30,109 bases of DNA from the IMG/VR virus record IMGVR_UViG_3300001589_000022, positions 6,056-36,164 of that record. One strand, 5' to 3'. The stretch comes from a virus. How positions within the stretch are numbered: position 1 is the first letter of the stretch; every line of letters begins with the position of its first letter. Under the pieces are notes generated by a model, which made no database searches, was not told the origin of the DNA, and saw only the letters and a list, made by a program, of their open reading frames with translations. Made by a program: the position numbers and the translations under genes. This document shows positions 1 through 20,845 of this stretch, piece after piece.

Positions 1-3000
1 CCAGCATCAGTTATTATCGTACTGTGTGAACCTCCACATAGACCTGTAAACACATAATTTAAATTATTAGTAGTATCAACCTGTCCTGAACTACCTTGAT
101 AGGTATAAGGTGCGGTTCCACCTGATATTGTTAAAACAATTTGACCATCACACGTAAAACAATTCGCTTGTGAAGGTACTGAAGAAACTACGCCTAAACT
201 TTCTGCTAATCCAACATTAAAAGTATTAACTACACGACATCCATCATTATCAGTAACCGTAACTGAATAATTACCCTGATTTAATCCTGTTGCAGTAGAA
301 CCTGTTTGTCCATTAGACCAAGAATAACTAAACGGTGCGGTACCTCCACTAATATTGGTTACAGAAGCGGAACCAACGGGTGTACGAGTTGAACACGGCG
401 AATCATCATTAACTATTAAATTATAAGTAAATGCGCTACTACTAACAATTACACCATTATTTGTTTGTCCTGTTGCTCCTCCAAAATCAGTAACAATAGC
501 ATAATAAGTTTCAGGTGTTAATTGTGTAAATATAAAAGTTGGTAAAGGTACATTAACCGACTGAACCAAACCTAAACTACTATAAAGGTCTATTTGGTAA
601 GGAGAGGATAAAGAATTACTAGTTACAGTTAAAGAACCTGAATTAAAATCCCCACATGTTGTACCTGTAACACCTATAATTTCTGCAACAAAACATCCTT
701 CAACACTAATATTAATTGTTATATCTTGATTAACTCCACCAGAACTATCTTGAAGTAAAAATACATAATTTCCTTCTGAAACACCACCATATGAAAATGG
801 ACCTGTACCTGTTTGTTGAGGTAACAATAATCCTCCTGCTGCGGTAGTTGAAGTATTTGTAACTGTATATGGTTGAGTTCCACCTGACGGATAAATAATT
901 ATAATACCTCCTTTAGGGTTGGTACAAGTACCACTAACATCAAAACTATAACTTAGTGGTCCTTCATTACAATTAGCTACACATTGGTCCGCAGTTAATG
1001 CAATACCACTATAGTTTTTAGATGTGTCCACACAAATTGATAAACCTACTTGACTACCCTGTTGTAATTCTCCACAACAATCAACGTAAGTATAAAACCC
1101 ATCAGTTTGTCCTGAAAAACATCCAGTAGACTCACAATTTTCACAGGTACTAAATGGACCCACTTGATTTGTAACTGACGTTAGTGTTGTTGGTGGTGTA
1201 ATACTTACCGACTCAACAGTATAACAATCTCCAGATAAATTGTATACTTCATTTCTTACTCTACCTCCCGTTTGTACATAAATCACATTTAAAGGAGTTT
1301 CAATATTAACCAAGAACCCGTCTAAAGAATTAGTAACTGAAGTTTCAGTAAAATTATTAACCGTTGGGTCACTTAAAATACCAAAATGTTTAAGACCAGC
1401 ACCATTTTGATTGGTTGGAGATAAATTTTGATAGGCGGTTGTAGTGGTTAATCCTGAATACGGATTAATAGTATTTAATGCACTTAAATTTAAACTGTAC
1501 GGACCTACTGATGTTATATTCTGCCCGTAATTTGTTAAAAAGTTTGAAGTACTAATTGTATCACCTTCGGAAGCGGCTACTGAGTGTAACACAAAAGAAG
1601 GTGTAGGTCCAGTAGTTGACTCCGCCACAGGGTAAATTAAACCATTTAACGTTCCGTTGTTGTCTTTTATATCTTCCCAAACTTTTAAATAAGATTCATA
1701 ATCATATTGGTACCTATTTGTGTACTCTTTTAGATTATTATTAGTCCAATAAGTCCCATCTAACATAAATGGTTGAGTTACAAGGTGTTCAAATTTCTGT
1801 AAACTACCTGTATATAGTCCAACCGCACTATCAGATTCGTCTATTACAAAAATTACAATATAATTACTTTCATCACCTGAAAATGTACCTGGACCAGATG
1901 TAGATGAAAAATCTAAATCATTGTGGTCAAAAGGTACACCATTACTTCTTAAGTCGTCAACACCATATGACCCTGTCAATTGATAACCTCTATTTATTCT
2001 TCTAAAAATAGATGATGATTGGTTTTCATCGTTAAATTGTACTGATTTAGGTACACATTCTCCACTAACTTCAGAAGAACACCATTGACTTTGATATATA
2101 GAATTAGTTACAGGACTATTAAATTCATTGATTGGTGTGTTATCAGATAAGGTACCCCCTGTTAATGAACCTAAATACGGATATGATGCCCACCATAACC
2201 AATTTTCACCATTATCTCCATCCTCACCAATAATACCTTCGTATAAATTACCTGATGTTAAATCTCCATTAGTTACTTTAGTTTGATACCAAGAACGTAT
2301 AGATTCGGAAGCGGTACTAGCACTACTTTCATCTAAAGATGTCCCATCATAAAAAATAAAGACTTTTTGACTTTGGCTTGTAACCACACAACTATTTAAT
2401 TTATCCGCTAAACCGGCTGGTGATGGGGTGGGTGTAGGTGTAGAAGTTAGAGTGGGTGTTGGTGTTAGAGTAGTCGTAACTGTAGGCGTTGGTGTGGGTG
2501 TTACTCCTACTGTTGGAGCAGGTGTAGTTGTTACTGCTGGTGTAGTTGTTACTGCTGGTGTAGTTGTTACTGCGGGTGTTGGGGTTACTGCCGGTGTAGT
2601 TGTTACTGCCGGTGTTGGGGTTGGGGTTGGGGTTACTGTTGGAGTGGGAGTGGGAGTTACTGATGAACATACAGCATCTGTACAATCTTTAGTAGATGTT
2701 GAAACAAAACTAGCTATGGTATTATCCCAATAAACAATGTCTGTGACGGGGTCACTTCCGGGAGATGATAGTCGAGTATAACAACCATTAGGTTGAGTAC
2801 CTACATCGGTAAAGAGATAAGTATTATTAATAGATGGGGTTGCAAAGTCATTAAGGAAATCTACCGCATTATATCTATAAATTTTATTAACTGAACAAGC
2901 AGAGAAATAATAATATTCAGGTATTTGATTTACATTATTAATACAATCGGGACAACTATTATATATACCCGCAATAGTATTACCCACTAATGGGGTCGAA

Positions 3001-4064
3001 ATATTAACTTGGTCAACCGCGTTGGATTCTCCTCCATAACAATCTGATTTAAGTTTAACAAATTGTGGAGTTACTTTACCTCCTCCTTGTGGTAGACCCC
3101 ATGTTAAAGTATTAGCACTAAAAACTTGAACACCTTGACTTACTCCTGAACAATTGTCATCAGATGTAAATTTATAAATGTCATTAAATTGATTATTTGT
3201 TTGGCAATCAACACAATCACTATACCAAGTCGAGACAATATCAAATCTTCCTGTTAAATTTGGGTCAGTTAACTTATTACCACTATAAGGTGTTTGAACA
3301 TTATTAGGTCTTAAACATGGTCCACCCCATTTTGATGAATACGATTCTGACCTATCGTACATATCACCCGCATAAATTATTCCGTTAACACCGGTAAATA
3401 AATTACCATAACAATCGTCAGACATTGAAATCCATCCATCATATAACCCATCAAAATAAGTTCTAGCCGCTGTTGCAGAATAAGGTATAAGGTCATAATA
3501 TGTGTTGGTTCCGTTATGAATTAAATCGGATACTATTGTGGTTGCGTTATTAAAATCATATATTGATACTCCATTATTAGTAATATGAGTATAATCAGTT
3601 TGTCCTGTTAACATAATAGAATCATAACGATTCGTATCTGTACCAATTTTTTTTGATGTATCATTAAATGAACTTGCACTATAAAATGAATCAGCAAATC
3701 TAGGCGATTTAAATTCGCCGCTTGGTCCTTCAACTGTTATATAATTCTTAGCAAAAAATGTAGTATTTATATTAAATGTATTTCCAACATAGGAATTAAT
3801 ACTAGCTATAATTGAACTCCAAGGTTCTCCTGATATCATCTGAGTATCAAAAGATATAGGTGTAGAACCTAAATTAGTTAGTAACCAAGTTCTTGACCTA
3901 AAAGACCATGTGGAATTGGGGTAAGTAGATAAAAAATTAACAGTATCAGTTCGGTTTAACCCTGACGGTACGCTAGCGTCTGGCCACGCCATATAAATGG
4001 TAGACCCTGTAGTTGGTGACCCAACAGTGGCTCTTTGTTCTAATTTAAAATATAAAGTCGCCAT
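1..4064 (-). CDS. Giant SprB-repeat, Pro/Thr-linked adhesin-like structural protein (partial, C-terminus beyond window)
   Basis: The frame is open from the ATG at 4064 to the left edge, at least 1354 codons with no stop. The ATG overlaps the stop of the preceding 987-codon gene by one base (TAATG). From the N-terminus I see about 230 residues I do not recognise; three cysteine-rich modules (about residues 215-465) in which a Cys-Tyr pair is followed by CxxC or a similar cysteine pair; an 81-residue Pro/Thr/Val linker (469-549); a possible degenerate von Willebrand A-like alpha/beta region (about 565-830); another Cys-Tyr to CxxC module (about 945-977); a cysteine-rich stretch; then about four SprB-like units (about 1040-1354) with signatures such as ISGGTAPFSYSW and ISGGTAPYTYQG. 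SprB repeats are known from the mobile surface adhesin of gliding Flavobacterium. Position after the baseplate genes suggests a tail fibre or other host-contact protein; that role is inferred. The protein is real with high confidence; its function is less certain. Confidence 0.85.
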   Translation of the reverse strand, partial: MATLYFKLEQRATVGSPTTGSTIYMAWPDASVPSGLNRTDTVNFLSTYPNSTWSFRSRTWLLTNLGSTPISFDTQMISGEPWSSIIASINSYVGNTFNINTTFFAKNYITVEGPSGEFKSPRFADSFYSASSFNDTSKKIGTDTNRYDSIMLTGQTDYTHITNNGVSIYDFNNATTIVSDLIHNGTNTYYDLIPYSATAARTYFDGLYDGWISMSDDCYGNLFTGVNGIIYAGDMYDRSESYSSKWGGPCLRPNNVQTPYSGNKLTDPNLTGRFDIVSTWYSDCVDCQTNNQFNDIYKFTSDDNCSGVSQGVQVFSANTLTWGLPQGGGKVTPQFVKLKSDCYGGESNAVDQVNISTPLVGNTIAGIYNSCPDCINNVNQIPEYYYFSACSVNKIYRYNAVDFLNDFATPSINNTYLFTDVGTQPNGCYTRLSSPGSDPVTDIVYWDNTIASFVSTSTKDCTDAVCSSVTPTPTPTVTPTPTPTPAVTTTPAVTPTPAVTTTPAVTTTPAVTTTPAPTVGVTPTPTPTVTTTLTPTPTLTSTPTPTPSPAGLADKLNSCVVTSQSQKVFIFYDGTSLDESSASTASESIRSWYQTKVTNGDLTSGNLYEGIIGEDGDNGENWLWWASYPYLGSLTGGTLSDNTPINEFNSPVTNSIYQSQWCSSEVSGECVPKSVQFNDENQSSSIFRRINRGYQLTGSYGVDDLRSNGVPFDHNDLDFSSTSGPGTFSGDESNYIVIFVIDESDSAVGLYTGSLQKFEHLVTQPFMLDGTYWTNNNLKEYTNRYQYDYESYLKVWEDIKDNNGTLNGLIYPVAESTTGPTPSFVLHSVAASEGDTISTSNFLTNYGQNITSVGPYSLNLSALNTINPYSGLTTTTAYQNLSPTNQNGAGLKHFGILSDPTVNNFTETSVTNSLDGFLVNIETPLNVIYVQTGGRVRNEVYNLSGDCYTVESVSITPPTTLTSVTNQVGPFSTCENCESTGCFSGQTDGFYTYVDCCGELQQGSQVGLSICVDTSKNYSGIALTADQCVANCNEGPLSYSFDVSGTCTNPKGGIIIIYPSGGTQPYTVTNTSTTAAGGLLLPQQTGTGPFSYGGVSEGNYVFLLQDSSGGVNQDITINISVEGCFVAEIIGVTGTTCGDFNSGSLTVTSNSLSSPYQIDLYSSLGLVQSVNVPLPTFIFTQLTPETYYAIVTDFGGATGQTNNGVIVSSSAFTYNLIVNDDSPCSTRTPVGSASVTNISGGTAPFSYSWSNGQTGSTATGLNQGNYSVTVTDNDGCRVVNTFNVGLAESLGVVSSVPSQANCFTCDGQIVLTISGGTAPYTYQGSSGQVDTTNNLNYVFTGLCGGSHSTIITDA
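2418..2660 (-). repeat. Pro/Thr/Val low-complexity linker coding region
   Basis: This stretch encodes residues 469-549 of the SprB-repeat protein, made almost only of Pro, Thr, Val and Ala as TP and VTTTPA units. Such linkers are usually extended and flexible and often separate adhesin domains. The complementary + strand is G-rich, with GGGG runs at 2617-2620, 2623-2626 and 2629-2632 and GGG at 2646-2648 and 2652-2654. The linker splits the protein into a cysteine-rich N-terminal part and an SprB-repeat C-terminal part. Confidence 0.9.
2521..2610. repeat. Five tandem 18-bp repeats
   Basis: Five consecutive 18-base units starting GGTGTAG or GGTGTTG are read directly on the + strand. Units 1 and 2 are identical; unit 3 differs at one base; unit 5 differs from unit 1 only at its last base; unit 4 carries a G-rich variant. 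Each unit encodes six residues of the VTTTPA type on the minus strand, so a gain or loss of units keeps the frame. This is a minisatellite inside a gene. Confidence 0.9.
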
Positions 4065-7027
4065 TAATTACAATTAATTTCTATGTTTACTCCAACATTT
4101 ACAGTTAAAGTTTTATTCGTAAATTCTGGTTCACATCCAGTATTACTTACTGTTAAAATATTATTATTATCTATATTATAATTCAAACCGTTTTGATATA
4201 AATACTGTAACTTATCATTCAACGCATTAATCCATTGATTAAATGTTGGGTAGTCTTGATTACCGTACCCCGTATAAAATAATTCTTGTACTAATACTGT
4301 GGAGTCTAACCTTACATCGACATACCACTTACTTGTAAGTGAAGACTGAACACAGTCAGTAATTGTATATCCTGATTTTGCAACGCAACTATTAATACTA
4401 CTATTTAATAAAGTTGGAATTGAATTGATATTAACGTCACACGTTAGTGTTTCATCAATACAGTCAACCTCAAATAACTGTCCATTATAAGTACATGGTA
4501 TACATTCAACAGGTATTATTTCACATCCTCTTTGTCTTCTCCACACATGTTTTTGTCTTTGTAAAACATTGTTAACCATTTTTTGACCACCCATCCATAT
4601 TGTTGAAGCAGGAATCATTTGTTCTACAAACTTTGTCCAATAATCTCCAATACCTAAAGTAAAATCAATCATTTTTTGGTAAGTATACTGGTTAGAAGGT
4701 ATATTAACCGCTGATTCTGACTGTAGATATTTCCAATATATTGATTGAAGTGTCGGATAACTATTGGCCGCACCATCACTAATAACTTGTCGATTTCTAA
4801 CGTTTATTAATGTATTATAAAATGTTTGTGAAAATTCAAAAAACGTCTTCTCTTTAGGTAATGGGTTAATAACTGTCCAATCTTTACCCGAAGGTGAAGG
4901 ATATGGGGCGGTTAAACCAGAAGAAGGAAAAGGATAATTATATCTTCTTGACATTCTCCATATATCGTAAGTTATACCTTGAGCCATATTAAGATAAAGT
5001 TCAACGTTTTTGGCATTTAAAACTAAGTCCTCTTCAAACGCGGTATAATAGGCGTTATACGCCCCATCTCTATTTCGTCTAAGACCTATTTCCGAATCGT
5101 CCCAAGATTTATTATTATCTACAGTTCTAGTTAATCCAAAACCTAAGTTCATGTAAGGAAAATCTCTAAACCTATCAAAATATTTTTGACCATAAGTAAA
5201 CGTTTCTAATTTTGTTTGAACATCAGGATTAGCCCCTGTAAAAGTTGAATTACTCACATCTAACTTTTCATTAGCCCTATGGTCAGGAGTTTCAATATAC
5301 CACCCCGCACCCTTTTCAAAAAAGAAATCATTATTAACTATTGGTCTTTTAGGGTATCCCTTGTCATTCATAGGATAGTCACCCCTAACTTCATTAGTTT
5401 GAGTAACATATGTTGAGGTTGTAAATCCTGTATAGGTCACCCCTTGAATATTATATATTACTGTAGGGTCTAAAGCTGGAACATCATCGACTTTAGTTCC
5501 TCCTGATATTTTTAAGAATTCTCCTTCGAACCTTTTAACATTAATCGGTCCATCCGCAACATAAACAATTTCATTAAACTCAATTAAATCTTTAGGTGCC
5601 CCTACCATTCTCATAATCGCCTCAACTGAGTGACGAGTACCTTTAGACTTAAAAAGATAAGCCGAGTTAAGTATTATATTTCTATAAAATTGATAATTAA
5701 GTTGATTAGGTGTTGGGTCATTCTGAAAACCAGGGTATATCGATTTATTTTTAGAACCGAATATAGAGGTTAAGAAATCTTCATTTGTGATTGGTGATAT
5801 GTTAGTATTCCACCCTAAAGTTTGTGCTAAATTCTGTAATAGAGCTGAAGGTATATCATTTTGAGGGGTATAATGAACTGAATTCATAAAAGATAATGCG
5901 TCTATAAATTTTTTAGATTCATCAAAACTTCTACCATAAATTTGTAATACTTTTTCTACTTTGTTATCCTGAGTATCAAAATCTTTAAACGCCCCTGTTG
6001 TTAAAAATCTAACTATTAAGTCAGTTTTATATCTATCTAAAACTTCAGATATTTGACTAACCTCTAAAAGGTAGGTATCAAAATTTTCACTTGTTATATC
6101 TAAATTCCATACACCACTTTTTGGCCAAGTAACTTTCTTTTTACTTTTAATAAATTGACCCATGTCATTTTCTTCTACTAAATCAAATGAGGCCGTATAG
6201 GGCGGATTACTAAATCTATTAAGTAAAAAATCTTCAACTTCATCAAATGGTTCTTGAAACGCAAATTCAGTATGAAATGTATTTGGTCGTAATATTAAAG
6301 TACTATTAGTCGTACTAACACCGCTAAACGGATTACCCATAACACTTAAAGTTATTGTTCCTGCGGAAAATGTGGTAGAAGGTGTAAAGTTAACTAACTG
6401 ATATTCAGTCTCCATATTATCCACATATAATGCGTATTTGTTATAGGTGTTAGTAAGGTCTCTTAAAGGACTCGTAGGGAAAGGTCTTAGCTCTAAATTT
6501 CTAGCGGCATTAACTGAATAATCAATATCAAAAGGATTAGTAAATCTACTAACATCCATAGTTAGTGTTGTAACTTGCTCAATACTATTAAAAGATATAT
6601 TAGTAGCGGTATTAGCACTTGAGTAATCCTTTAATAATATTTTATCTACTTGAATAGATGCAGGAAAAAAATTGATTATTTTTGTTATTGAAGATGATAA
6701 TCTTTTTTGTAATGAACCATATAAAGCATAATTTGTTACTTGACTTATATCGTAATTAGGATATACCCTATAATTTTTTATTGCAATTGCCTTGGACTCT
6801 TCAATACTATCAACGTCAAGGTCAGCTAAGGATATTGGATTACTAAAGACTCCAGTCTCAAATGTTCTATTAACTTTTTCAACAATAGAAGTACTAAACT
6901 CGAAATTACCCTGAGTCAATCCACCACCATCAACCACTTGTAACCCAACTAAATTGGGGGAAAAGGATTCATCTGCACTTGGAGGTGCGGGTGGATAAAA
7001 GTATTTTTTATTGTTATTATTTGCCAT
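4064..7027 (-). CDS. Large baseplate/tail structural protein with tail-protein-I-like motif
   Basis: 987 residues, starting MANNNNKKYF, two bases after the stop of the 302-codon gene. The middle carries KGTRHSVEAIMRMVGAP (about residues 458-474), which resembles the KGT...(A/V)...LLG signature of P2 gpI-type baseplate proteins; before it lies a helical stretch (about 340-400) containing DRYKTDLIVRFL and QIYGRSFDE. The last 150 residues contain a cysteine cluster starting CEIIPVECIPC, followed by further paired cysteines, hinting at a metal-bound or disulphide-linked domain at the tip. No signal peptide or membrane segment is visible. It lies between wedge proteins and the adhesin-like gene, so it may connect baseplate to fibre. 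The baseplate assignment is inferred from neighbours and one motif; the exact T4 counterpart is not clear to me. Confidence 0.7.
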   Translation of the reverse strand: MANNNNKKYFYPPAPPSADESFSPNLVGLQVVDGGGLTQGNFEFSTSIVEKVNRTFETGVFSNPISLADLDVDSIEESKAIAIKNYRVYPNYDISQVTNYALYGSLQKRLSSSITKIINFFPASIQVDKILLKDYSSANTATNISFNSIEQVTTLTMDVSRFTNPFDIDYSVNAARNLELRPFPTSPLRDLTNTYNKYALYVDNMETEYQLVNFTPSTTFSAGTITLSVMGNPFSGVSTTNSTLILRPNTFHTEFAFQEPFDEVEDFLLNRFSNPPYTASFDLVEENDMGQFIKSKKKVTWPKSGVWNLDITSENFDTYLLEVSQISEVLDRYKTDLIVRFLTTGAFKDFDTQDNKVEKVLQIYGRSFDESKKFIDALSFMNSVHYTPQNDIPSALLQNLAQTLGWNTNISPITNEDFLTSIFGSKNKSIYPGFQNDPTPNQLNYQFYRNIILNSAYLFKSKGTRHSVEAIMRMVGAPKDLIEFNEIVYVADGPINVKRFEGEFLKISGGTKVDDVPALDPTVIYNIQGVTYTGFTTSTYVTQTNEVRGDYPMNDKGYPKRPIVNNDFFFEKGAGWYIETPDHRANEKLDVSNSTFTGANPDVQTKLETFTYGQKYFDRFRDFPYMNLGFGLTRTVDNNKSWDDSEIGLRRNRDGAYNAYYTAFEEDLVLNAKNVELYLNMAQGITYDIWRMSRRYNYPFPSSGLTAPYPSPSGKDWTVINPLPKEKTFFEFSQTFYNTLINVRNRQVISDGAANSYPTLQSIYWKYLQSESAVNIPSNQYTYQKMIDFTLGIGDYWTKFVEQMIPASTIWMGGQKMVNNVLQRQKHVWRRQRGCEIIPVECIPCTYNGQLFEVDCIDETLTCDVNINSIPTLLNSSINSCVAKSGYTITDCVQSSLTSKWYVDVRLDSTVLVQELFYTGYGNQDYPTFNQWINALNDKLQYLYQNGLNYNIDNNNILTVSNTGCEPEFTNKTLTVNVGVNIEINCN

Positions 7028-7029
7028 TA

Positions 7030-7938
7030 TTAATTAGTTATGTTGTTGAAATTCTTACTGAAATCAATATTATTATCTCTATCTTGACGAACTTCATAAA
7101 GTAAATTATTGAATTCATCACGGATTTCGTATAAGTTATATTGTTTATAGATATTAAGACTATTATCATACATCGTATATATACCATCTTCCATACTCTT
7201 AGTTTGGTTACCGTAAAGCGCAATAGCTAAAGTATCTATATCGTGTTCAGCCAATTCAACATCAACACTAATTGGATTAAAAAATGTATTGGTCATAACA
7301 ATATTTTGATTTGGTTGACCAATAAATGGAGTCGCGTTTGCTTTGTTAGAAGGTGCACTTGAAGGTGAAACCGTACAAAAAATTAAATCACTACCACTAT
7401 CAACATACCTATAACGAATGGCTTTTTGAGAGCTATTAGATAAATTAGTTACCACAGGTTCACAATAAAAAGAAGATGTGACTACTCTGTAGAAGTTAGG
7501 TATTTTAGTACCATCACTATTTAAATATTCGATACGGTAACCTATTAATCCTTGATTAATAAATCTATTTCTAAATTGTTGTGGTACCGCATTTAAATCT
7601 ATAATAATCCCTTTTACATTTGGTAAAGATGATAACACACCACAATCTGTTATAGTCGTTCTTATCTCTACAGGTCTTATATATAGAGTATATATACCTA
7701 TTTTATTAAATTCCTCTGCTGGTAATTTTAAATTATATAAACCTCCTAATATTTCCACATCTGCGTTCCCTCCTGTTGTTGAACTATGAAAATAAGGTGT
7801 TAACACATCAGCGGCGTTTAGCTTTGTTAAAACAAAATTTGTCGTAACGTCTCTTGAAGGAGTATAATTCAGTATTATCTCCACATCTTCGGGAGACATA
7901 TCTGCTGGTCGTACTGTTCCGTATGTTCCTAATGCCAT
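7030..7938 (-). CDS. Unrecognised virion structural protein (302 aa)
   Basis: I do not recognise this protein. It starts MALGTYGTVRPADMSPEDVE, has no membrane segment or signal peptide, and appears rich in beta strands. The C-terminal end is charged and probably helical or strand-forming (YEIRDEFNNLLYEVRQ). Cysteines are few: one in a TDCG segment (residue about 99), one in SFYCEP and one in IFCTV. It is packed between the 360- and 987-codon genes with gaps of 5 and 2 bases, so it is almost certainly cotranscribed with them and is probably part of the baseplate or fibre connector. Function is unknown. Confidence 0.75.
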   Translation of the reverse strand: MALGTYGTVRPADMSPEDVEIILNYTPSRDVTTNFVLTKLNAADVLTPYFHSSTTGGNADVEILGGLYNLKLPAEEFNKIGIYTLYIRPVEIRTTITDCGVLSSLPNVKGIIIDLNAVPQQFRNRFINQGLIGYRIEYLNSDGTKIPNFYRVVTSSFYCEPVVTNLSNSSQKAIRYRYVDSGSDLIFCTVSPSSAPSNKANATPFIGQPNQNIVMTNTFFNPISVDVELAEHDIDTLAIALYGNQTKSMEDGIYTMYDNSLNIYKQYNLYEIRDEFNNLLYEVRQDRDNNIDFSKNFNNITN

Positions 7939-7943
7939 TTTAT

Positions 7944-9026
7944 TTACTCGTTATTTTTGTTTATTTTGAAGTAACCGTACCCATAAGATTCCATGTCACC
8001 TAAGTTATCAACTTCCCCAAGTCTCTGTAATGATTCAAAGCCTGAAAGCTTACCTCTTTCAATAAATATTTCAGATTGTATTTCCGGTGAGTCAACTACG
8101 TTAATTAATACTTCTTGTTTAGTTATTGCTGAGGCAACAAGGTCATAACTTGTTAAACCTGAGGAATTGGCGATATATAATGTAGTACCATCAGGGTAAT
8201 CATAGTAATCAACATCATTAATTGTGTACGAAGTATAACCACTCGTTATTTGATTAACTTTACCGTATGGTTGTCCCCCTTTAACTACTGTAGTAGTTAT
8301 ATCATATTGAACTGTACCATATAATTTAAGTTCAGATAATCTAGATGAGGTAAAACCACTAACTATAAATGGTACTGTTGTAAAATTATTAGAAGTCTGA
8401 CTTTGTACGGTATTTGAACTGTCCCCGGTAAAAATATAATTATAATTTATTGGTATACCTGACCAACTTCCACCTTGAGGTGTAAACGTAATATTACCAT
8501 AAGGATTATTTATCGTAACTCCCGTTGTCGGTAAGTAAACTTTCTTTTCTATATTAGTCTGTCCCCATGGATTATTTTGAGTTAAGGTTATTGTATAACT
8601 CGTAGGAACGTTGGGATAAGTATGTGACAAATATTGAGGAGAGTTTGTGGTAAATGGCTCTGAATTACCGTCTCCCCAATTTACAGTATAATTAGCTAAC
8701 TTTAAAAACCCTTTATATTGGTCAGAAGTATTAAAAATTCTAATTACGTATTGGTTTCCAGGGTCTCCTGAGGTTATAAAATTACTAACCACATCTTTTT
8801 GTAACGCGAAACCGTCAAATGGCGTATAAAACCCATAATTTTCATAAGTTTGTCTAAACACTAAAGGTATGGTTAAACCCGTAAGTAAACTACTACCTCC
8901 TGTACCTCCACTCAATACTTGAGTCATACCTGTATAAACACCAAAAGTATTACCACTGAAATACTCAGTAATAACGTCACCTTTTATTGATTCAGGAGAA
9001 ACTTTTATGTAATATTTTTCTTCCAT
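7944..9026 (-). CDS. Virion structural protein with a PKD-like domain (360 aa)
   Basis: Residues about 90-168 read as a PKD-type immunoglobulin-like fold: WGDG at 117-120, HTYPN at 135-139 and YTITLT at 144-149 are the family's typical marks. The Gly/Ser-rich segment before it (LSGGTGGSSLLTG, residues 38-50) looks like a flexible linker. PKD domains commonly mediate surface contact or protein-protein packing in adhesins and phage fibres. The ATG overlaps the stop of the upstream 286-codon gene by one base. The C-terminal half is not recognised. The PKD call is made from the sequence; the place in the virion is inferred from the surrounding operon. Confidence 0.75.
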   Translation of the reverse strand: MEEKYYIKVSPESIKGDVITEYFSGNTFGVYTGMTQVLSGGTGGSSLLTGLTIPLVFRQTYENYGFYTPFDGFALQKDVVSNFITSGDPGNQYVIRIFNTSDQYKGFLKLANYTVNWGDGNSEPFTTNSPQYLSHTYPNVPTSYTITLTQNNPWGQTNIEKKVYLPTTGVTINNPYGNITFTPQGGSWSGIPINYNYIFTGDSSNTVQSQTSNNFTTVPFIVSGFTSSRLSELKLYGTVQYDITTTVVKGGQPYGKVNQITSGYTSYTINDVDYYDYPDGTTLYIANSSGLTSYDLVASAITKQEVLINVVDSPEIQSEIFIERGKLSGFESLQRLGEVDNLGDMESYGYGYFKINKNNE

Positions 9027-9886
9027 TATTGTGGATTAACGTATTCGTACCATTTTATACCATTATTTAATTGACCTACTCTATTTCCTACCCCATATTC
9101 TTCAAAAACCTCATATTCATAATTATCAACATCTAAGTTAACTTTGTAATAAAAGTATTCAGACTTATCAAAATTAAATTTTTCAGATATATTAGATTGT
9201 GGTCTATTTGTCATTCTAACAAATTGTCCTATTTTAGCATTAAAAAATTTAGCCGACATATAAAAAGTATTTAAATCTATATATTCACGACTTTTTAACC
9301 AATAAATAAAATACCCCTCTTTATCTCCAACATAGTCTAAATTAAATAATGGTTTTCTAATATCGACTGGTTTTGGTACTGTAGGTGTACCGATATCAAC
9401 TTGTGTTTTTTCACCTTGTTGTGTCGGTATAACTACTGTGAAATAAATTTGTTGATTTTGAGCGTCAGTAGTATCATAAAAATCTAGTTTAAAGAAACTT
9501 CTCTTAAATGAATTGGCGTAATAATAAAGTTCTTTATTAGTAAATGTAATACCACTATAATTTTGATAGACTGAAGGGTCGACATAAGTATAACTAGAAA
9601 CCCATAAATTACTATTAGCCGGTGTAGTTGTATCGACATCTACTGTACGATTAAAAAAAGAAAATTCGTAAGTAGTACTGTTTTTAGGTATGTTATTAAC
9701 ATTTAACCACTTATTATGTGAGTAACGTGTCGTTTCAAAATCTTCAACAGGATTAATCACTTGTTCTATGACATCATCTTCATATTGTTTAATTAAATCT
9801 TCTCTACCTAAATTATCGAAATCAATTTCAATAGGTAGATTAAATTGTGTGTCTTTATCGTTTACGGTAAATCTAAATTTATTCAC
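9026..9886 (-). CDS. Unrecognised virion structural protein (286 aa)
   Basis: This protein is not recognised. It opens with MNKFRFTVNDKD and an acidic strand LPIEIDFDNL, similar in layout to the starts of the 582- and 1680-residue neighbours. It is rich in Tyr, Phe and Asn, with many predicted beta strands, and contains no cysteine in the parts I examined and no membrane segment. The start overlaps the end of the 582-codon gene by 8 bases and its stop overlaps the next start by one base, indicating translational coupling within the structural operon. It is probably a baseplate or tail component, but this rests on context alone. Confidence 0.72.
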   Translation of the reverse strand: MNKFRFTVNDKDTQFNLPIEIDFDNLGREDLIKQYEDDVIEQVINPVEDFETTRYSHNKWLNVNNIPKNSTTYEFSFFNRTVDVDTTTPANSNLWVSSYTYVDPSVYQNYSGITFTNKELYYYANSFKRSFFKLDFYDTTDAQNQQIYFTVVIPTQQGEKTQVDIGTPTVPKPVDIRKPLFNLDYVGDKEGYFIYWLKSREYIDLNTFYMSAKFFNAKIGQFVRMTNRPQSNISEKFNFDKSEYFYYKVNLDVDNYEYEVFEEYGVGNRVGQLNNGIKWYEYVNPQ

Positions 9887-11627
9887 AATCGTCAGTTATT
9901 GGGTCAAAGATTATGTCATTAAAGACGTTATTGTTTTTCATTAAGGGAGTCTGTAAAAATAGCACATCCGCAAAAGGATAATGTTCCCCATTTAAAAATG
10001 GGTAATTAACTCCATTACCATCGGTGTCTATATACCCATAAGTGTATATATCTCTCCATCTCCACTGTCCCTCAAAATTTGAAAAGAAAGAATAGTCAGG
10101 AACACCACTTACAGCTTCTCTATCTCCCGTTTCAATATAGTCCGAATAAACTCTTAGTTTTACTGAATGATGTGGGTTATATGTGTATCCATCGGGTAAA
10201 TTAACATTTCCTGATGTTGTTATTACACCAGGATTAAAAGAATATTTATGAGATATCTTTGATAGAATAGTTTCTTTTTGGTCGAATTTATTCCATTCAC
10301 AAATATCTCCTTTAATTTCTGTTCCTATCGGTAAATCTTTATTATAGTAAAATCTTATATTTAAATTATTATCACCCGGTTTATCATAATAGTCTGTAGT
10401 TATATTATCTTTATTCTGTAGATTTAACTTAGACCACCAAGTATCAATCATGCTCTTTCTAAAATTAAATGACCACCCAACTTCTAACCCTTTATTAGGG
10501 GGTCCTGTTCCACCGTGATTGAAAAATCCCATATAACCTTTGTTCACTATCGTAACGAATAATTCTGTCACAGGTCTATCAAGATTATCCATTAGTGATA
10601 TAATATCTATATCTTTATCAAATGATAAACCAAACGAACCTCTACCATCTTTTACTGATATCCTTGTTGTTTGATTTGGCGTAAGTGCGGAGTACTCTAA
10701 TTTTTTTTCTACAGGAAAATTATTTTGTTCAAACCCCATTCGGGTTAAATCTACATTTTTTACTTCAGTTAATGTCTTATGTTTTCTTACATAGTATTCT
10801 GACATAGTTTCTCCAGAATTGCTAGGGTTAATAACTCTTTTTAATGTTCCCATAGCTCCGTCACTAATACTATTACCTGTATACCCATAGTTATAAACAT
10901 TAAGAATCTTATCTTCATTACCATATGATTGGTCTCCTAAACTATAAACTTCTAATAAATTTTTACCATTTACAGGTGTTTGCAAGTAAACATAATCACC
11001 TTCCTTTATGTTATGTTTGAATCCACAATAAAAACTAATCATTCTTTTTCCATTTACTGTGCGATTCTTAATTGAATATGGGATACCGTCAGACACATTA
11101 AAAGTTAAACTAGTGTTAGTATCATCATCAGTATATTTCATAGACTGATTATAGTCATTTTTATGAGAGTAACTTAAATACACTGACCAATTATAGGTTG
11201 ATGCACTTTTACTATCATAATCTACATGACCTGGCACTCCTGATGTTCTAAAAAAATTAAATTCATCATAAGGAGGGTACCCTGTCCAAACCGCGTTAGC
11301 GACGTTTCCTTGAGCCGCTACTAATGATTGTGTTGGGTCTATATAATACAATTCTTCTTCAAAGGGAGCATAATTAGAACATCTTCCTGATACCGTATTA
11401 TCAAATAAATTTACTATTTTACCGGCTATTCTAAACTTTGTTGAAATCTGTCTTTCATGGTCAAATCTTTCTTCTAAATTAATTAGTACATTTCTATCTC
11501 CCTCAATAATACTTTTTTTAGAATTTTCTAATGGTATCTGAATAGATAAATCCGTATCAGGTGCGCCCGCATAACGGTCAGAACCCCTAACTATTCTAAT
11601 ACTTTGATTATTTTTTTGATTACCCAT
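9879..11627 (-). CDS. Unrecognised virion structural protein (582 aa)
   Basis: Not recognised. The N-terminus (MGNQKNNQSIRIVRG, then DLSIQIPLE) mirrors the beginning of the upstream 1680-residue protein (SIRIRTEPG, then DINVKI), suggesting a shared docking strand pair. The body is rich in Tyr, Asn, Asp and Gly with alternating strand-like segments, as is common in phage baseplate and fibre proteins. No signal peptide or membrane helix is seen. Overlaps of 8 bases at both ends couple it to its neighbours. In T4 the slots after gp6 hold gp7, gp8, gp9 and gp10, but I cannot match this protein to any one of them. Confidence 0.72.
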   Translation of the reverse strand: MGNQKNNQSIRIVRGSDRYAGAPDTDLSIQIPLENSKKSIIEGDRNVLINLEERFDHERQISTKFRIAGKIVNLFDNTVSGRCSNYAPFEEELYYIDPTQSLVAAQGNVANAVWTGYPPYDEFNFFRTSGVPGHVDYDSKSASTYNWSVYLSYSHKNDYNQSMKYTDDDTNTSLTFNVSDGIPYSIKNRTVNGKRMISFYCGFKHNIKEGDYVYLQTPVNGKNLLEVYSLGDQSYGNEDKILNVYNYGYTGNSISDGAMGTLKRVINPSNSGETMSEYYVRKHKTLTEVKNVDLTRMGFEQNNFPVEKKLEYSALTPNQTTRISVKDGRGSFGLSFDKDIDIISLMDNLDRPVTELFVTIVNKGYMGFFNHGGTGPPNKGLEVGWSFNFRKSMIDTWWSKLNLQNKDNITTDYYDKPGDNNLNIRFYYNKDLPIGTEIKGDICEWNKFDQKETILSKISHKYSFNPGVITTSGNVNLPDGYTYNPHHSVKLRVYSDYIETGDREAVSGVPDYSFFSNFEGQWRWRDIYTYGYIDTDGNGVNYPFLNGEHYPFADVLFLQTPLMKNNNVFNDIIFDPITDDCE

Positions 11628-16733: not shown

Positions 16734-18572
16734 TTATGAGAAGTCGACATTTTTAAGTGACTTAGCTCTCACTTTAATGTCATTGTCGGGGAATCGAATT
16801 TGATAAACTTGATTTGGTTGTGCAAAAATAGTGTCATCAACTAACTGAATTTGTTTTGTCTGATTGTCTGAATATCTTTGAGATGTTTGTGAATTAGAGT
16901 ATCTACCACCCACTTTATTAAAAACTTTTAATTCTGAAAGAGATATGACTCCCGGTATATCTTGTACTATTCTTCGTATGTCCGAAATATTAACATTATC
17001 ACCTAATTGTTGTTTTTGAGGTGAAAAATAACTATCTACTGAGTTAATAATATTAGTAATAATCTGTCCTTGGTTTTGAGTTGAGTCCATTACTACGGAT
17101 AATTCAAATTCTAAATCAACCACATTAGCGTTAGTTATTGAGATGTAATCATTTATCATTCTATAATGTGATAAATAATTAGCTATATTTTGTTTTAATG
17201 TATTTGAAACTGATTCTGTAAGTTTTCCTTGTGTATCATAAGATAATATTTCAATTCTTATTTTATTCTCTTGTTCTGTGATAGCCGCCTTCGCAGGTGC
17301 TCCAAACCTACTAGGCATTGTTCTAACCAATGAGTTATAATCGTTAACTGTTACCGCTCTTTTTTGTGCCGCAAAATTAAATGATACCATATTTCTAACC
17401 TCTTCAGGGGTCGGTAAATCTCCACCACCTATAGCCGCAGTAACATTAGTAGTTCTTAAACTATCAATAACATTTTGATTAACGTTATTAGATGGTCCAT
17501 TAACATCAAAATATGTTGTACCAAACTGTGTTATTACATCAACACCAACATTAGAGGATTTACCTCCTCCAATTCTATATTGTACAAATAATGTTGTATT
17601 CGCCTTTACAGTTAACCCTAATCCAATATTATTTTGATAATCTTGGATTCTTAAAGGAATACCAGTTCTCGTAAATTCTTGTAGTTGTTCCTCAGGTGTT
17701 GTTGTTCCTCCTCCAAAATTAACTTTACAGTAACCTTCAGGTGTATATTCAGAAACAAATCTATTTTCAGTTTCAATATACTTACCTACTTTAAGTCCTG
17801 GTTTATCTGCCGGTCGTGTGGGGTCTTCAATAAAAATTTTAGATTCTGCTAAAGCATCTACTTCGTACCATTTGTCAGGAGAACTAATAAACTCATCATA
17901 CGTAGGAGGTGATTGATAATTTACACCATCTTTTTGAATTAATGAAGTTATACTAATAACATTTTTTTCGGGTAAGAAAAATTCAAAAAATGGTTTTACA
18001 TCGTTATTATTAATAACTTTTTTAAATGTTTTAGTTAATCCATTAACTACAACTTCTCTTTTAGTCATTGTATAATTAATTAACCTATTATTAGAATCAA
18101 AGTTTGGTATTTTAGTACGGTTTGGGAAACCTTCACTATTGTACTGTGAAGTAAAATCAATATCGTTAGGGTTTTCAAATACCTGTCCAGCACCAATAAA
18201 TTGAGAACCCGCTCTCATAACACCTAAATACCTTTCATCTTCTTGGTCCCCTAATGCTGGAACCGTGATTGAAATATCTACTAAGGCAATTGACGGTCTG
18301 TTACCGGGTATCTTTAAACCATAAGTTCTAGCAATATTATAAATTGACGATTTTTGTTGAGCGTATTGTAATACTGTTTCTTGGATACTTCTATCCATGT
18401 GATAATGTAGATTATCTCCGATAGCCGCATTTAAGTCCATAAATACAGAATAAATCGAGGCATCGTTAAAATTAGCTATTAATTCTGGATAATACTGTTG
18501 TGTATAATTTATCAATTCTTGTCTTAAGGATTGAAAGTCTCTATCTGTGTATGAAATTTTACGGTTAGCCAT
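16734..18572 (-). CDS. gp6: Baseplate wedge protein, gp6 / J-like
   Basis: 612 residues. The N-terminus (YTDRDFQSLRQELINY, then DLNAAIGDNLHYHMDRSIQE) is the typical start of T4 gp6 and P2 gpJ-type baseplate proteins: a helical region with an alternating D...Y..D...E pattern. The centre contains QKRAVTVNDYNSLV and the C-terminal part QDIPGVISLSELKVFN, both characteristic of baseplate_J proteins. In T4, gp6 forms a heterotrimer with gp7 and dimerises around the hub, making the inner baseplate ring. It follows the gp25-like gene by five bases, the same adjacency as in many contractile phages and type VI secretion clusters. T4 gp6 has about 660 residues, so the length fits. Its assignment is confident. 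Confidence 0.9.
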   Translation of the reverse strand: MANRKISYTDRDFQSLRQELINYTQQYYPELIANFNDASIYSVFMDLNAAIGDNLHYHMDRSIQETVLQYAQQKSSIYNIARTYGLKIPGNRPSIALVDISITVPALGDQEDERYLGVMRAGSQFIGAGQVFENPNDIDFTSQYNSEGFPNRTKIPNFDSNNRLINYTMTKREVVVNGLTKTFKKVINNNDVKPFFEFFLPEKNVISITSLIQKDGVNYQSPPTYDEFISSPDKWYEVDALAESKIFIEDPTRPADKPGLKVGKYIETENRFVSEYTPEGYCKVNFGGGTTTPEEQLQEFTRTGIPLRIQDYQNNIGLGLTVKANTTLFVQYRIGGGKSSNVGVDVITQFGTTYFDVNGPSNNVNQNVIDSLRTTNVTAAIGGGDLPTPEEVRNMVSFNFAAQKRAVTVNDYNSLVRTMPSRFGAPAKAAITEQENKIRIEILSYDTQGKLTESVSNTLKQNIANYLSHYRMINDYISITNANVVDLEFELSVVMDSTQNQGQIITNIINSVDSYFSPQKQQLGDNVNISDIRRIVQDIPGVISLSELKVFNKVGGRYSNSQTSQRYSDNQTKQIQLVDDTIFAQPNQVYQIRFPDNDIKVRAKSLKNVDFS

Positions 18573-18578
18573 ATAATA

Positions 18579-19040
18579 TTAAATATTAATAATCACGAAA
18601 TCTTTTGATGAAAATGTACCATTAACAATAGTAAAGTCAATTCTTAGTTTTGCGGTGTACTCTACCGCACTATCACTCGCAACTCTAAAAATTTGACCAC
18701 CTAATTCATCGTAATTGATTTCACCAGGTAATGGTTCTGCTTCGACATAAGGTTCAATGGTTATGTCATTTATTTGTAAATTTGGTATAAATTTATCTAC
18801 GGCTTGTCTAACATCTGCTTTAATCGCATCGAATGTCGGTCCATCCATTGGTTCAAATATAAACTCGTATATTCGAGTACCAAAATCAGGTAGATAGTAC
18901 CTACTACCTTTCCTTGTTAATATTAAATGAAGTAAATCTGCCCTTATTTCCTCATCTGAGGATTCAGTTAATCTTAGGTAGTCACCTTGTAAACTATCTC
19001 TAAAAGGAAAAAATACACCATATGTTTTACCGTTTGCCAT
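18579..19040 (-). CDS. gp25: Baseplate wedge protein gp25 (GPW/gp25 family)
   Basis: 153 residues, close to T4 gp25 (132). The family's hallmarks are present: a loop with LTESSDEEIRADLLHLILTR and then RYYLPDFGTRIYEFIFEP (arginine-glycine and aromatic pattern that gave the family its misleading 'lysozyme' name), followed by a strand-rich C-terminus ending in SSKDFVIINI. gp25 sits in the inner baseplate next to gp6 and the sheath initiator, and is a conserved core protein of all contractile injection systems. The gene is the first after a terminator and so probably starts the wedge operon; the leader has no Shine-Dalgarno sequence. Confidence 0.9.
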   Translation of the reverse strand: MANGKTYGVFFPFRDSLQGDYLRLTESSDEEIRADLLHLILTRKGSRYYLPDFGTRIYEFIFEPMDGPTFDAIKADVRQAVDKFIPNLQINDITIEPYVEAEPLPGEINYDELGGQIFRVASDSAVEYTAKLRIDFTIVNGTFSSKDFVIINI

Positions 19041-19138: not shown

Positions 19139-20845
19139 TTAACCCTCACACGCAACACATTGTAAGTCATTTAAATTCAACTTTTTTCTAGCAAAAGCCT
19201 GTGCCGAGTTCATAGAATGTTGATAATATAGTGTCTTAACCCCTAACTTCCATGAGTCAATAAGTAATTTATTAACGTCTTTAGTTGGCATCTCAGGTGA
19301 AACCATTAAATTTAAAGATTGCGACTGGTCAATAAAGTCTTGTCTAATTGCTGCCTGATTAACAATTGACGATTGATTAATTTCTGCAAATGTTCTAAAC
19401 ACATCTTTTTGGTCGTCATTTAGAAAATCTAAATGTTGTACTGAACCGTCAGCCTTTTTTATACTATCCCAAGTTTCCTTATTATTTTTACCGATTGAGT
19501 CTAACAAATCTTTTAATATAGGATTTTTAATAGTAACCTTCATTTTAGCTACATCCTTAACATAACAGTTAGACCAAATAGGTTCAATGGATTGTGACAC
19601 TTGACCAAGAATAAACGCCGATGAAGTAGTCGGAGCAACAGCATTAAGTGTTACGTTTCGTCTACCATAACCTTTTAGATATTCAGGTTCACCAAAAATT
19701 TCAGCTAACTCTTCTGATGCTTTATATGATTTATCTTTAATTGTTCTAAATACCTCAACATTAAGTTTAGCAGTTTCTTTAGTATCGAAAGGTAATCCTT
19801 TTGATTGTAGAAGTGAGTGCCAACCTAAAACACCTAAACCGAGTGCTCTTTGTCTTTTAGCGAAGTTATAAGCCTTTTCCATATATAAAAACGCCATTTT
19901 ACCTTCTCTAGTACCGTTGTCTCTTAATTTTTCTAATTTATTACAATACTCTGTAACAACCGCATCTAAGAAATAAACCATAGTTTCAACAGCGTCAGTA
20001 TCTTTCCATTCATCGTAGTGTAATACATTCATTGAAGATAGTACACAAACAAATGATTCGTCTTCAGAATTATGTAGAGCTATCTCAGAGCAAAGATTAG
20101 AGTTATATATTTTAGCTCCTTTATCTTGGTAGACTTTAGGTGCGTTATTGTTCATTGTATCATGAAACATAATATAAGGATAACCAATTTCACCTCTTCT
20201 TTGAATTACTTTAGCCCATATCTTTCTTTTTTCATCGTCCCCCGCAATCATTTCTTCCATAAATTTATCAGTAACTGTTACCGCGTGTGTTAAATCTTGT
20301 ATTGAAGCTCCTTCCGTACCAATCTCTAAGAATTCCATAATATCAGGGTGCTCAATAGGTAGGTAAGGTGAGAAACGACCTCTTCGTGTCGCCCCTTGTG
20401 AAATGTTATCAACCACACTTTGAAATAGATTCATAAAATGGACTGCACCTGGTGCATGTCCATTATCCGTTATCTTAGCTCCACGACCTCTAATGTTACC
20501 GAAATACCCTGAAGTACCCCCACCCATTTTACTCATTTCACCAACTTCAGCCTGTGTAAATAATATTGATTCTATACTATCACTAACGTTTGAACCAAAA
20601 CAACTCACAGGAAGACCTCTAACTTTACCGAAATTTGCCCATACTGGTGATGATAATGAATACCATCCTTTACTCATGTAATCATAAAATTTATCCGCAA
20701 ACCCTTCTTTATTTAAAAGTTTTTCTGCATGTTCTGCAATTATTTTTATTCTATCTAAAGGTTCTTCACCTTCACTTAAATAACCTCTACGAAGAAACGT
20801 TATTGATTCTTCATTAATCCAATTAAAAGGTTCTCTCTTTTTCAT
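19139..20845 (-). CDS. nrdA: Ribonucleotide reductase large subunit (class I, alpha), no ATP-cone
   Basis: Converts ribonucleotides to deoxyribonucleotides with the NrdB partner encoded just upstream. Key residues are visible: C82 in VSCFGSN and C267 in FVCVLSSMN form the active-site redox pair; N250, C252 and E254 in NSNLCSEI are the catalytic set; Y540-Y541 in KTLYYQHS are the radical-transfer pair; C563 and C566 (CVAC) form the C-terminal shuttle pair. PTTSSAFILGQVSQSIEP is the substrate-binding loop. At 568 residues it is shorter than E. coli NrdA (761), mainly because the N-terminal ATP-cone is missing: the protein begins almost at the helical domain. Regulation of overall activity is instead expected through the cone fused to NrdB. 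Gene order is nrdB then nrdA, 35 bases apart, followed by a terminator. Confidence 0.95.
   Translation of the reverse strand: MKKREPFNWINEESITFLRRGYLSEGEEPLDRIKIIAEHAEKLLNKEGFADKFYDYMSKGWYSLSSPVWANFGKVRGLPVSCFGSNVSDSIESILFTQAEVGEMSKMGGGTSGYFGNIRGRGAKITDNGHAPGAVHFMNLFQSVVDNISQGATRRGRFSPYLPIEHPDIMEFLEIGTEGASIQDLTHAVTVTDKFMEEMIAGDDEKRKIWAKVIQRRGEIGYPYIMFHDTMNNNAPKVYQDKGAKIYNSNLCSEIALHNSEDESFVCVLSSMNVLHYDEWKDTDAVETMVYFLDAVVTEYCNKLEKLRDNGTREGKMAFLYMEKAYNFAKRQRALGLGVLGWHSLLQSKGLPFDTKETAKLNVEVFRTIKDKSYKASEELAEIFGEPEYLKGYGRRNVTLNAVAPTTSSAFILGQVSQSIEPIWSNCYVKDVAKMKVTIKNPILKDLLDSIGKNNKETWDSIKKADGSVQHLDFLNDDQKDVFRTFAEINQSSIVNQAAIRQDFIDQSQSLNLMVSPEMPTKDVNKLLIDSWKLGVKTLYYQHSMNSAQAFARKKLNLNDLQCVACEG

Follow-up and report, generated by a model that had tools for sequence, protein, structure and literature searches.

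The window analysed here, a 30,109-nucleotide stretch spanning bases 6056-36164 of a 49,293-base IMG/VR virus record, carries its genes on the minus strand and includes a cluster with homologues of the T4 baseplate wedge proteins gp6 and gp25, the baseplate hub and the tail tube, alongside NrdA/NrdB, a DnaB-like helicase, a UvsX-like recombinase, an exonuclease and a single-strand binding protein (Table 1). Within this baseplate cluster lies a gene whose product matches the SprB repeat profile PF13573, bearing out the preliminary description, which had reported SprB-type repeats in a phage structural gene. The array was also said there to run off the window, and it does, but only because the window starts just past an N at contig base 6055; the remainder is present on the contig up to the stop codon, and the gene in full (contig 3715-10119(-), 2134 aa, two undetermined bases) encodes seven units at residues 1034-1620. 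The sole PHROG match of this SprB-repeat protein was phrog_15511 (unknown function), over its Thr/Pro linker, with no sequence match to the T4-like long tail fibre (gp34-gp37) families in PHROG, and the genes between gp6 and the SprB-repeat gene had no PHROG matches.

Table 1. Features of the window discussed in the text (window coordinates).
Feature	Position	Strand	Basis
SprB-repeat tail-module protein, 5' part (1354 of 2134 aa)	3..4064	-	ORF, PF13573
N-terminal domain, residues 1-460	2685..4064	-	phmmer
Thr/Pro-rich linker, residues ~468-552	2409..2663	-	read from translation
Module A, residues 553-930, exchangeable head, predicted vWA-like fold	1275..2408	-	AlphaFold2 + structural matches
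Cys-rich N-terminal domain of conserved core, residues 982-1033, CFSGQTDGFYTYVDCCG...	966..1121	-	alignment
SprB-type unit 1, residues 1034-1124	693..965	-	alignment; clusters by position
SprB-type unit 2, residues 1125-1210	435..692	-	alignment; clusters by position
SprB-type unit 3, residues 1211-1286, ISGGTAPFSYSW ... GNYSVTVTD	207..434	-	PF13573 place G000:C1:6358-6429, E=7.3e-9
SprB-type unit 4, residues 1287-1354 of 1287-1368, cut by window edge, ISGGTAPYTYQG	3..206	-	PF13573 place G000:C1:6139-6237, E=3.2e-10
987-aa structural protein, directly upstream of SprB-repeat gene	4064..7027	-	synteny
Baseplate wedge gp6 homologue	16734..18572	-	PHROG 219, 8.6e-23
Baseplate wedge gp25-like protein	18579..19040	-	PHROG 261, 8.3e-17

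Profile searching with PF13573 gave two matching stretches in the part of the gene inside the window (E=1.7e-10) and four in the complete gene (E=6.3e-18, 64.6 bits), the latter above the curated cut-off of 28 bits, with the strongest stretch in unit 4 (residues 1295-1327). Because none of 14 control genomes matched the same profile, we exclude a chance match. The preliminary description had counted about four units; units 1-4 do fall within the window (3-965(-), the fourth cut off), but the full array has seven. Likewise, the two motifs that it quoted are both present, in units 3 and 4, but it is the minus strand that encodes them; plus-strand frame 1 is full of stops. The resulting architecture, a Cys-rich domain followed by seven Ig-like units and then an alpha/beta domain, constitutes a conserved core: all 23 aligned relatives match PF13573 in their cores at E 0.01 or better, and the cysteines of the Cys-rich domain are invariant across these 23 in the alignment.

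Scans of viral contigs recovered 24 loci with the SprB-repeat protein and, with the upstream 987-aa neighbour as query, 46 loci with that neighbour. At every locus with a complete downstream gene the core follows the 987-aa neighbour (in L071 as a second, separate reading frame), and at loci lacking a visible core the contig ends before reaching it. At its C-terminus the 987-aa protein is similar to the C-terminal domain located after unit 7, sharing 35% identity with it over 51 aa (E=8e-5), and the core also matched relatives' versions of the 987-aa protein. The shortest form of the SprB-repeat protein (767 aa) comprises the Cys-rich domain, seven units, the C-terminal domain and little else, having no head modules, while longer versions also carry Thr/Pro linkers and additional modules, reaching ~3,800 residues. 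The domain at residues 1-460 is confined to the closest relatives (phmmer; L008, L009, L011, L013, L016, L032, L033, L039, L048). A phage protein of this kind has already been named 'SprB repeat' in UniProt: A0A6J5LD72, from an uncultured Caudovirales phage (UniProt/BFVD), is the best match to the core in the viral library (Foldseek E=3.1e-54, 29% identity) and aligns over almost all of it. At 714 aa it is about as long as the minimal form, and it should therefore lack the N-terminal, vWA-like and Thr/Pro parts. New here are the fixed order of the seven units, their orthology throughout the lineage, and heads that are exchangeable and probably vWA-like. Among the papers searched, none named SprB repeats in phage virions, and tblastn with the whole protein and with the minimal form revealed no named phage isolate with a homologue, matching only LR756502, which we rejected as such since the protein encoded there is bacterial in type, having both a hydrophobic N-terminus and a T9SS domain. 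Scanning genomes with the core profile gave 28 pattern matches, none of them confirmed, and thus no host-integrated copy was seen.

Given the two undetermined bases in the window's own gene, we modelled the core of a relative (L012, 63% identical) with AlphaFold2 from 23 sequences. The model (mean pLDDT 81.7, units mostly 80-90) predicts a string of Ig-like beta-sandwich beads with ~7 strands per unit, ending in an alpha/beta domain, and its pTM of 0.29 is what flexibly linked domains would be expected to give. Structure prediction of the units had been proposed as a check on the repeats, and the predicted fold agrees with them. Fibronectin-type (Fn3) and Ig-like domains ranked highest by VIA (Z 9-11), while the nearest solved structures by Foldseek were fragments of GhpA, the grappling hook protein of Aureispira (PDB 9flp, 9flw, 9fly; E=2.7e-20). 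GhpA, the closest solved counterpart of the Ig-like array, shares 14-18% identity with it and is a cellular surface hook rather than a virion protein. The tailed-phage decoration protein 5lxk and the neck-whisker 9occ share G..PYTY.W / Y.VTVTDS motifs in single Ig-like units, but they have one or few such units, come from other phage lineages and match the phage core with weak E-values (1.4e-5 to 0.016).

The modules flanking the core vary and move between genes. Module A occurs in several different proteins, and because it is present in other genes and doubled in three relatives we consider it an exchangeable part. Its AlphaFold2 model (pLDDT 86, pTM 0.88) is likely vWA-like: the best structural matches were integrin beta I and vWF A1 domains, and the top VIA rows were mostly vWA/integrin I domains, at a borderline Z of ~8 over ~153-181 residues. 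There was no Foldseek match below E 0.001 and no Pfam match, and neither module A nor the 987-aa neighbour had a sequence match to solved structures. The MIDAS motif DxSxS is absent from module A, which has an invariant FYDxT (D21, T23) instead. One relative carries a clear VWA domain (E=2.9e-17) in the N-terminal part of the same protein. Separately, the C-terminal module of the SprB-repeat protein (L006:3979-4788), found elsewhere only in L008 among the loci examined, holds a canonical DxSxS (DDSGS) with no VWA match in Pfam.

To place the units relative to those of bacteria, we cut 161 phage units from the alignment and compared them with a set of 1349 units that came almost entirely from bacterial loci; among the 80 loci listed (L082-L161), 79 are labelled Bacteroidota or close relatives. 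The sole exception, L129 (JAESTE010000102.1), is an SprB array in a MAG labelled Nitrospinaceae, perhaps a binning error. Phage and Bacteroidota arrays belong to the same repeat family and share a Cys pair and the GG..PY.Y.W / VTVTD..GC motifs, but the bacterial arrays are long (up to 45 units per reading frame among the loci listed) and homogenised, whereas the phage array has only seven units, which are diverged. For 158 of the 161 phage units the best match outside their own clade lay at the same position in another phage clade, mean identity between clades being 38.6% at the same position and 27.5% at different positions. A tree of the units of six phages with 40 bacterial-type units resolved positions 1, 2, 4, 5 and 6 each as a pure group of six (support 0.92-0.99), with position 7 pure but without support and position 3 mixed with bacterial units. 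Since the units are orthologous by position, the seven were in place before these phages diverged.

These observations bear on the suggestion, made in the preliminary description, that the repeat was captured from host adhesin genes. In favour of a recent capture, units 3, 4 and 7 have their best bacterial matches at 44-67% identity in most clades, and unit 3 fails to separate from bacterial units in the tree. Against it stand the position-wise matching, the pure position clades and the low likeness among units of one phage protein, whose median nearest-paralogue identity is 34% (23 proteins) as opposed to 56% in bacterial arrays. The position-wise orthology leads us to reject recent capture, which we regard as highly improbable. 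By these comparisons the array looks old, inherited in order throughout the phage lineage, and looks like an ordinary adhesin stalk; its units may originally have come from a bacterial source, through a very old common origin.

Secreted SprB-type adhesins, by comparison, have a signal peptide as well as a T9SS sorting domain; the phage protein lacks both, a difference that also speaks against recent capture. We detected no signal-peptide-like N-terminus (best 11-residue hydrophobicity mean 0.49, versus 2.34 in the bacterial-type control) and no C-terminal match to CHU_C or TIGR04131, both of which are matched in the control protein of L078; a weak Por_Secre_tail match lay within the array and below cut-off. 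Lacking both features, the protein is not a secreted host-type SprB adhesin, a candidate that we rejected. The control itself (L078:18915-23927) sits in a 642-kb uncultured phage record (LR756502.1), where its neighbours include gyrase/topoisomerase subunits, SpoVR and a glutamate synthase domain. It is an adhesin of bacterial type that combines 14 SprB stretches and a PKD domain with a hydrophobic N-terminus and a T9SS type B sorting domain; its presence in this record reflects either a real capture or a chimeric assembly.

Judged by its genes, the phage is T4-like and contractile-tailed, and it is distant from every isolate: the nearest named ones by baseplate wedge are Flavobacterium phage immuto and Microcystis phage Mel-JY01, alongside an uncultured 484-kb phage, all at ~26% identity. 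The NrdA-like protein (window 19139-20845) is far closer to isolates' versions than the wedge is, being 60-64% identical to Sporosarcina and Staphylococcus phage proteins. Shine-Dalgarno words occur at 0/20 genes in this phage and 3/130 in its relatives, compared with 0/25 in immuto and 6/234 at Bacteroidota loci, and with 15/26 in T4 and 8/23 in the Microcystis phage. This scarcity, as in Bacteroidota and immuto, fits a Bacteroidota host, and from these sequence signals the host most likely lies in that phylum. Flavobacterium phage vB_FspM_immuto shares with this phage the T4-like contractile-tail cluster and the missing Shine-Dalgarno signals but, unlike it, has no PF13573 match anywhere in its genome, nor did the other two of three phage records searched outside the lineage.

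Drawing these lines together, we read the protein as probably an adhesin or fibre on the virion of a T4-like phage of Bacteroidota, with an SprB-type stalk and exchangeable heads. It would be made in the cytoplasm and built into the baseplate or tail tip beside the 987-aa protein, whose C-terminal likeness to the domain after unit 7 may mark the place of anchoring. The seven SprB-type Ig-like beads of the core would then act as a flexible stalk, with the Cys-rich and alpha/beta domains at its two ends, and the heads, at least one of them predicted to be vWA-like, would be carried by Thr/Pro-rich linkers on either side of the core and make contact with the cell surface; a role in adhesion is suggested by this architecture. 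The minimal form, having no heads, means that the core may have a purely structural job, and a possible, if rather unlikely, alternative is that the seven beads serve as a structural element of the baseplate or neck (a spacer, whisker or decoration of Ig-like type) away from the host, which only the variable heads, where present, would touch. Besides that core-only form, the constant adjacency to the 987-aa structural gene and weak sequence matches of the core profile to the neck-whisker 9occ (E=1.4e-5) and the decoration proteins 5lxk and 8zvi point this way. Yet the core diverges faster (29-68% identity among core sequences) than the 987-aa neighbour (55-85%), unlike a tightly packed structural part, and flexible fibre-like arrays are the usual thing in exposed parts.

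A more elaborate alternative, also raised in the preliminary description, is that the repeats mimic or engage the gliding adhesins of the host (SprB/RemA) or their track, such that the virion binds or rides the moving adhesin. The repeat family is indeed common to Bacteroidota adhesins, and published work on this phylum counts gliding adhesins among the possible phage receptors and describes phage resistance in gliding mutants (PMC13288928; PMC7345892), which keeps the idea open yet does not support it for the SprB-repeat protein itself. Nothing in the sequence demands such an interaction, and beads of the Ig-like type do not necessarily associate with one another. The phage array is long inherited, none of its units stands particularly near a single host, and the anatomy can be accounted for more simply by an adhesin stalk. 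We consider engagement improbable. We give still less credence to the broader proposition that phages of gliding Bacteroidota carry fibres made of their hosts' adhesin repeat with vWA-like heads in order to bind or ride moving SprB-type adhesins.

A repeat that is usually taken as the mark of a host gliding adhesin is here a constant component, fixed in its order, of a T4-like lineage of uncultured phages, and therefore a PF13573 match alone is not proof of a host gene or of recent capture. The combination of conserved stalk and exchangeable heads points to where host range could be encoded, and the role of gliding adhesins as phage receptors would become directly testable if an isolate were found.

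The product of the next gene downstream of the SprB-repeat gene (L006:931-3633, 900 aa) consists to about two thirds of Thr/Pro repeats, and its C-terminal domain resembles, by eye, the C-terminal end of the L052 relative. Several relatives have a second gene, of another family, with SprB-type units placed both N-terminally and centrally (L163:10031-11605, L164:5175-6806, L165:5799-8498, L166:5270-6658), and the L165 member of this family holds an inserted module A.
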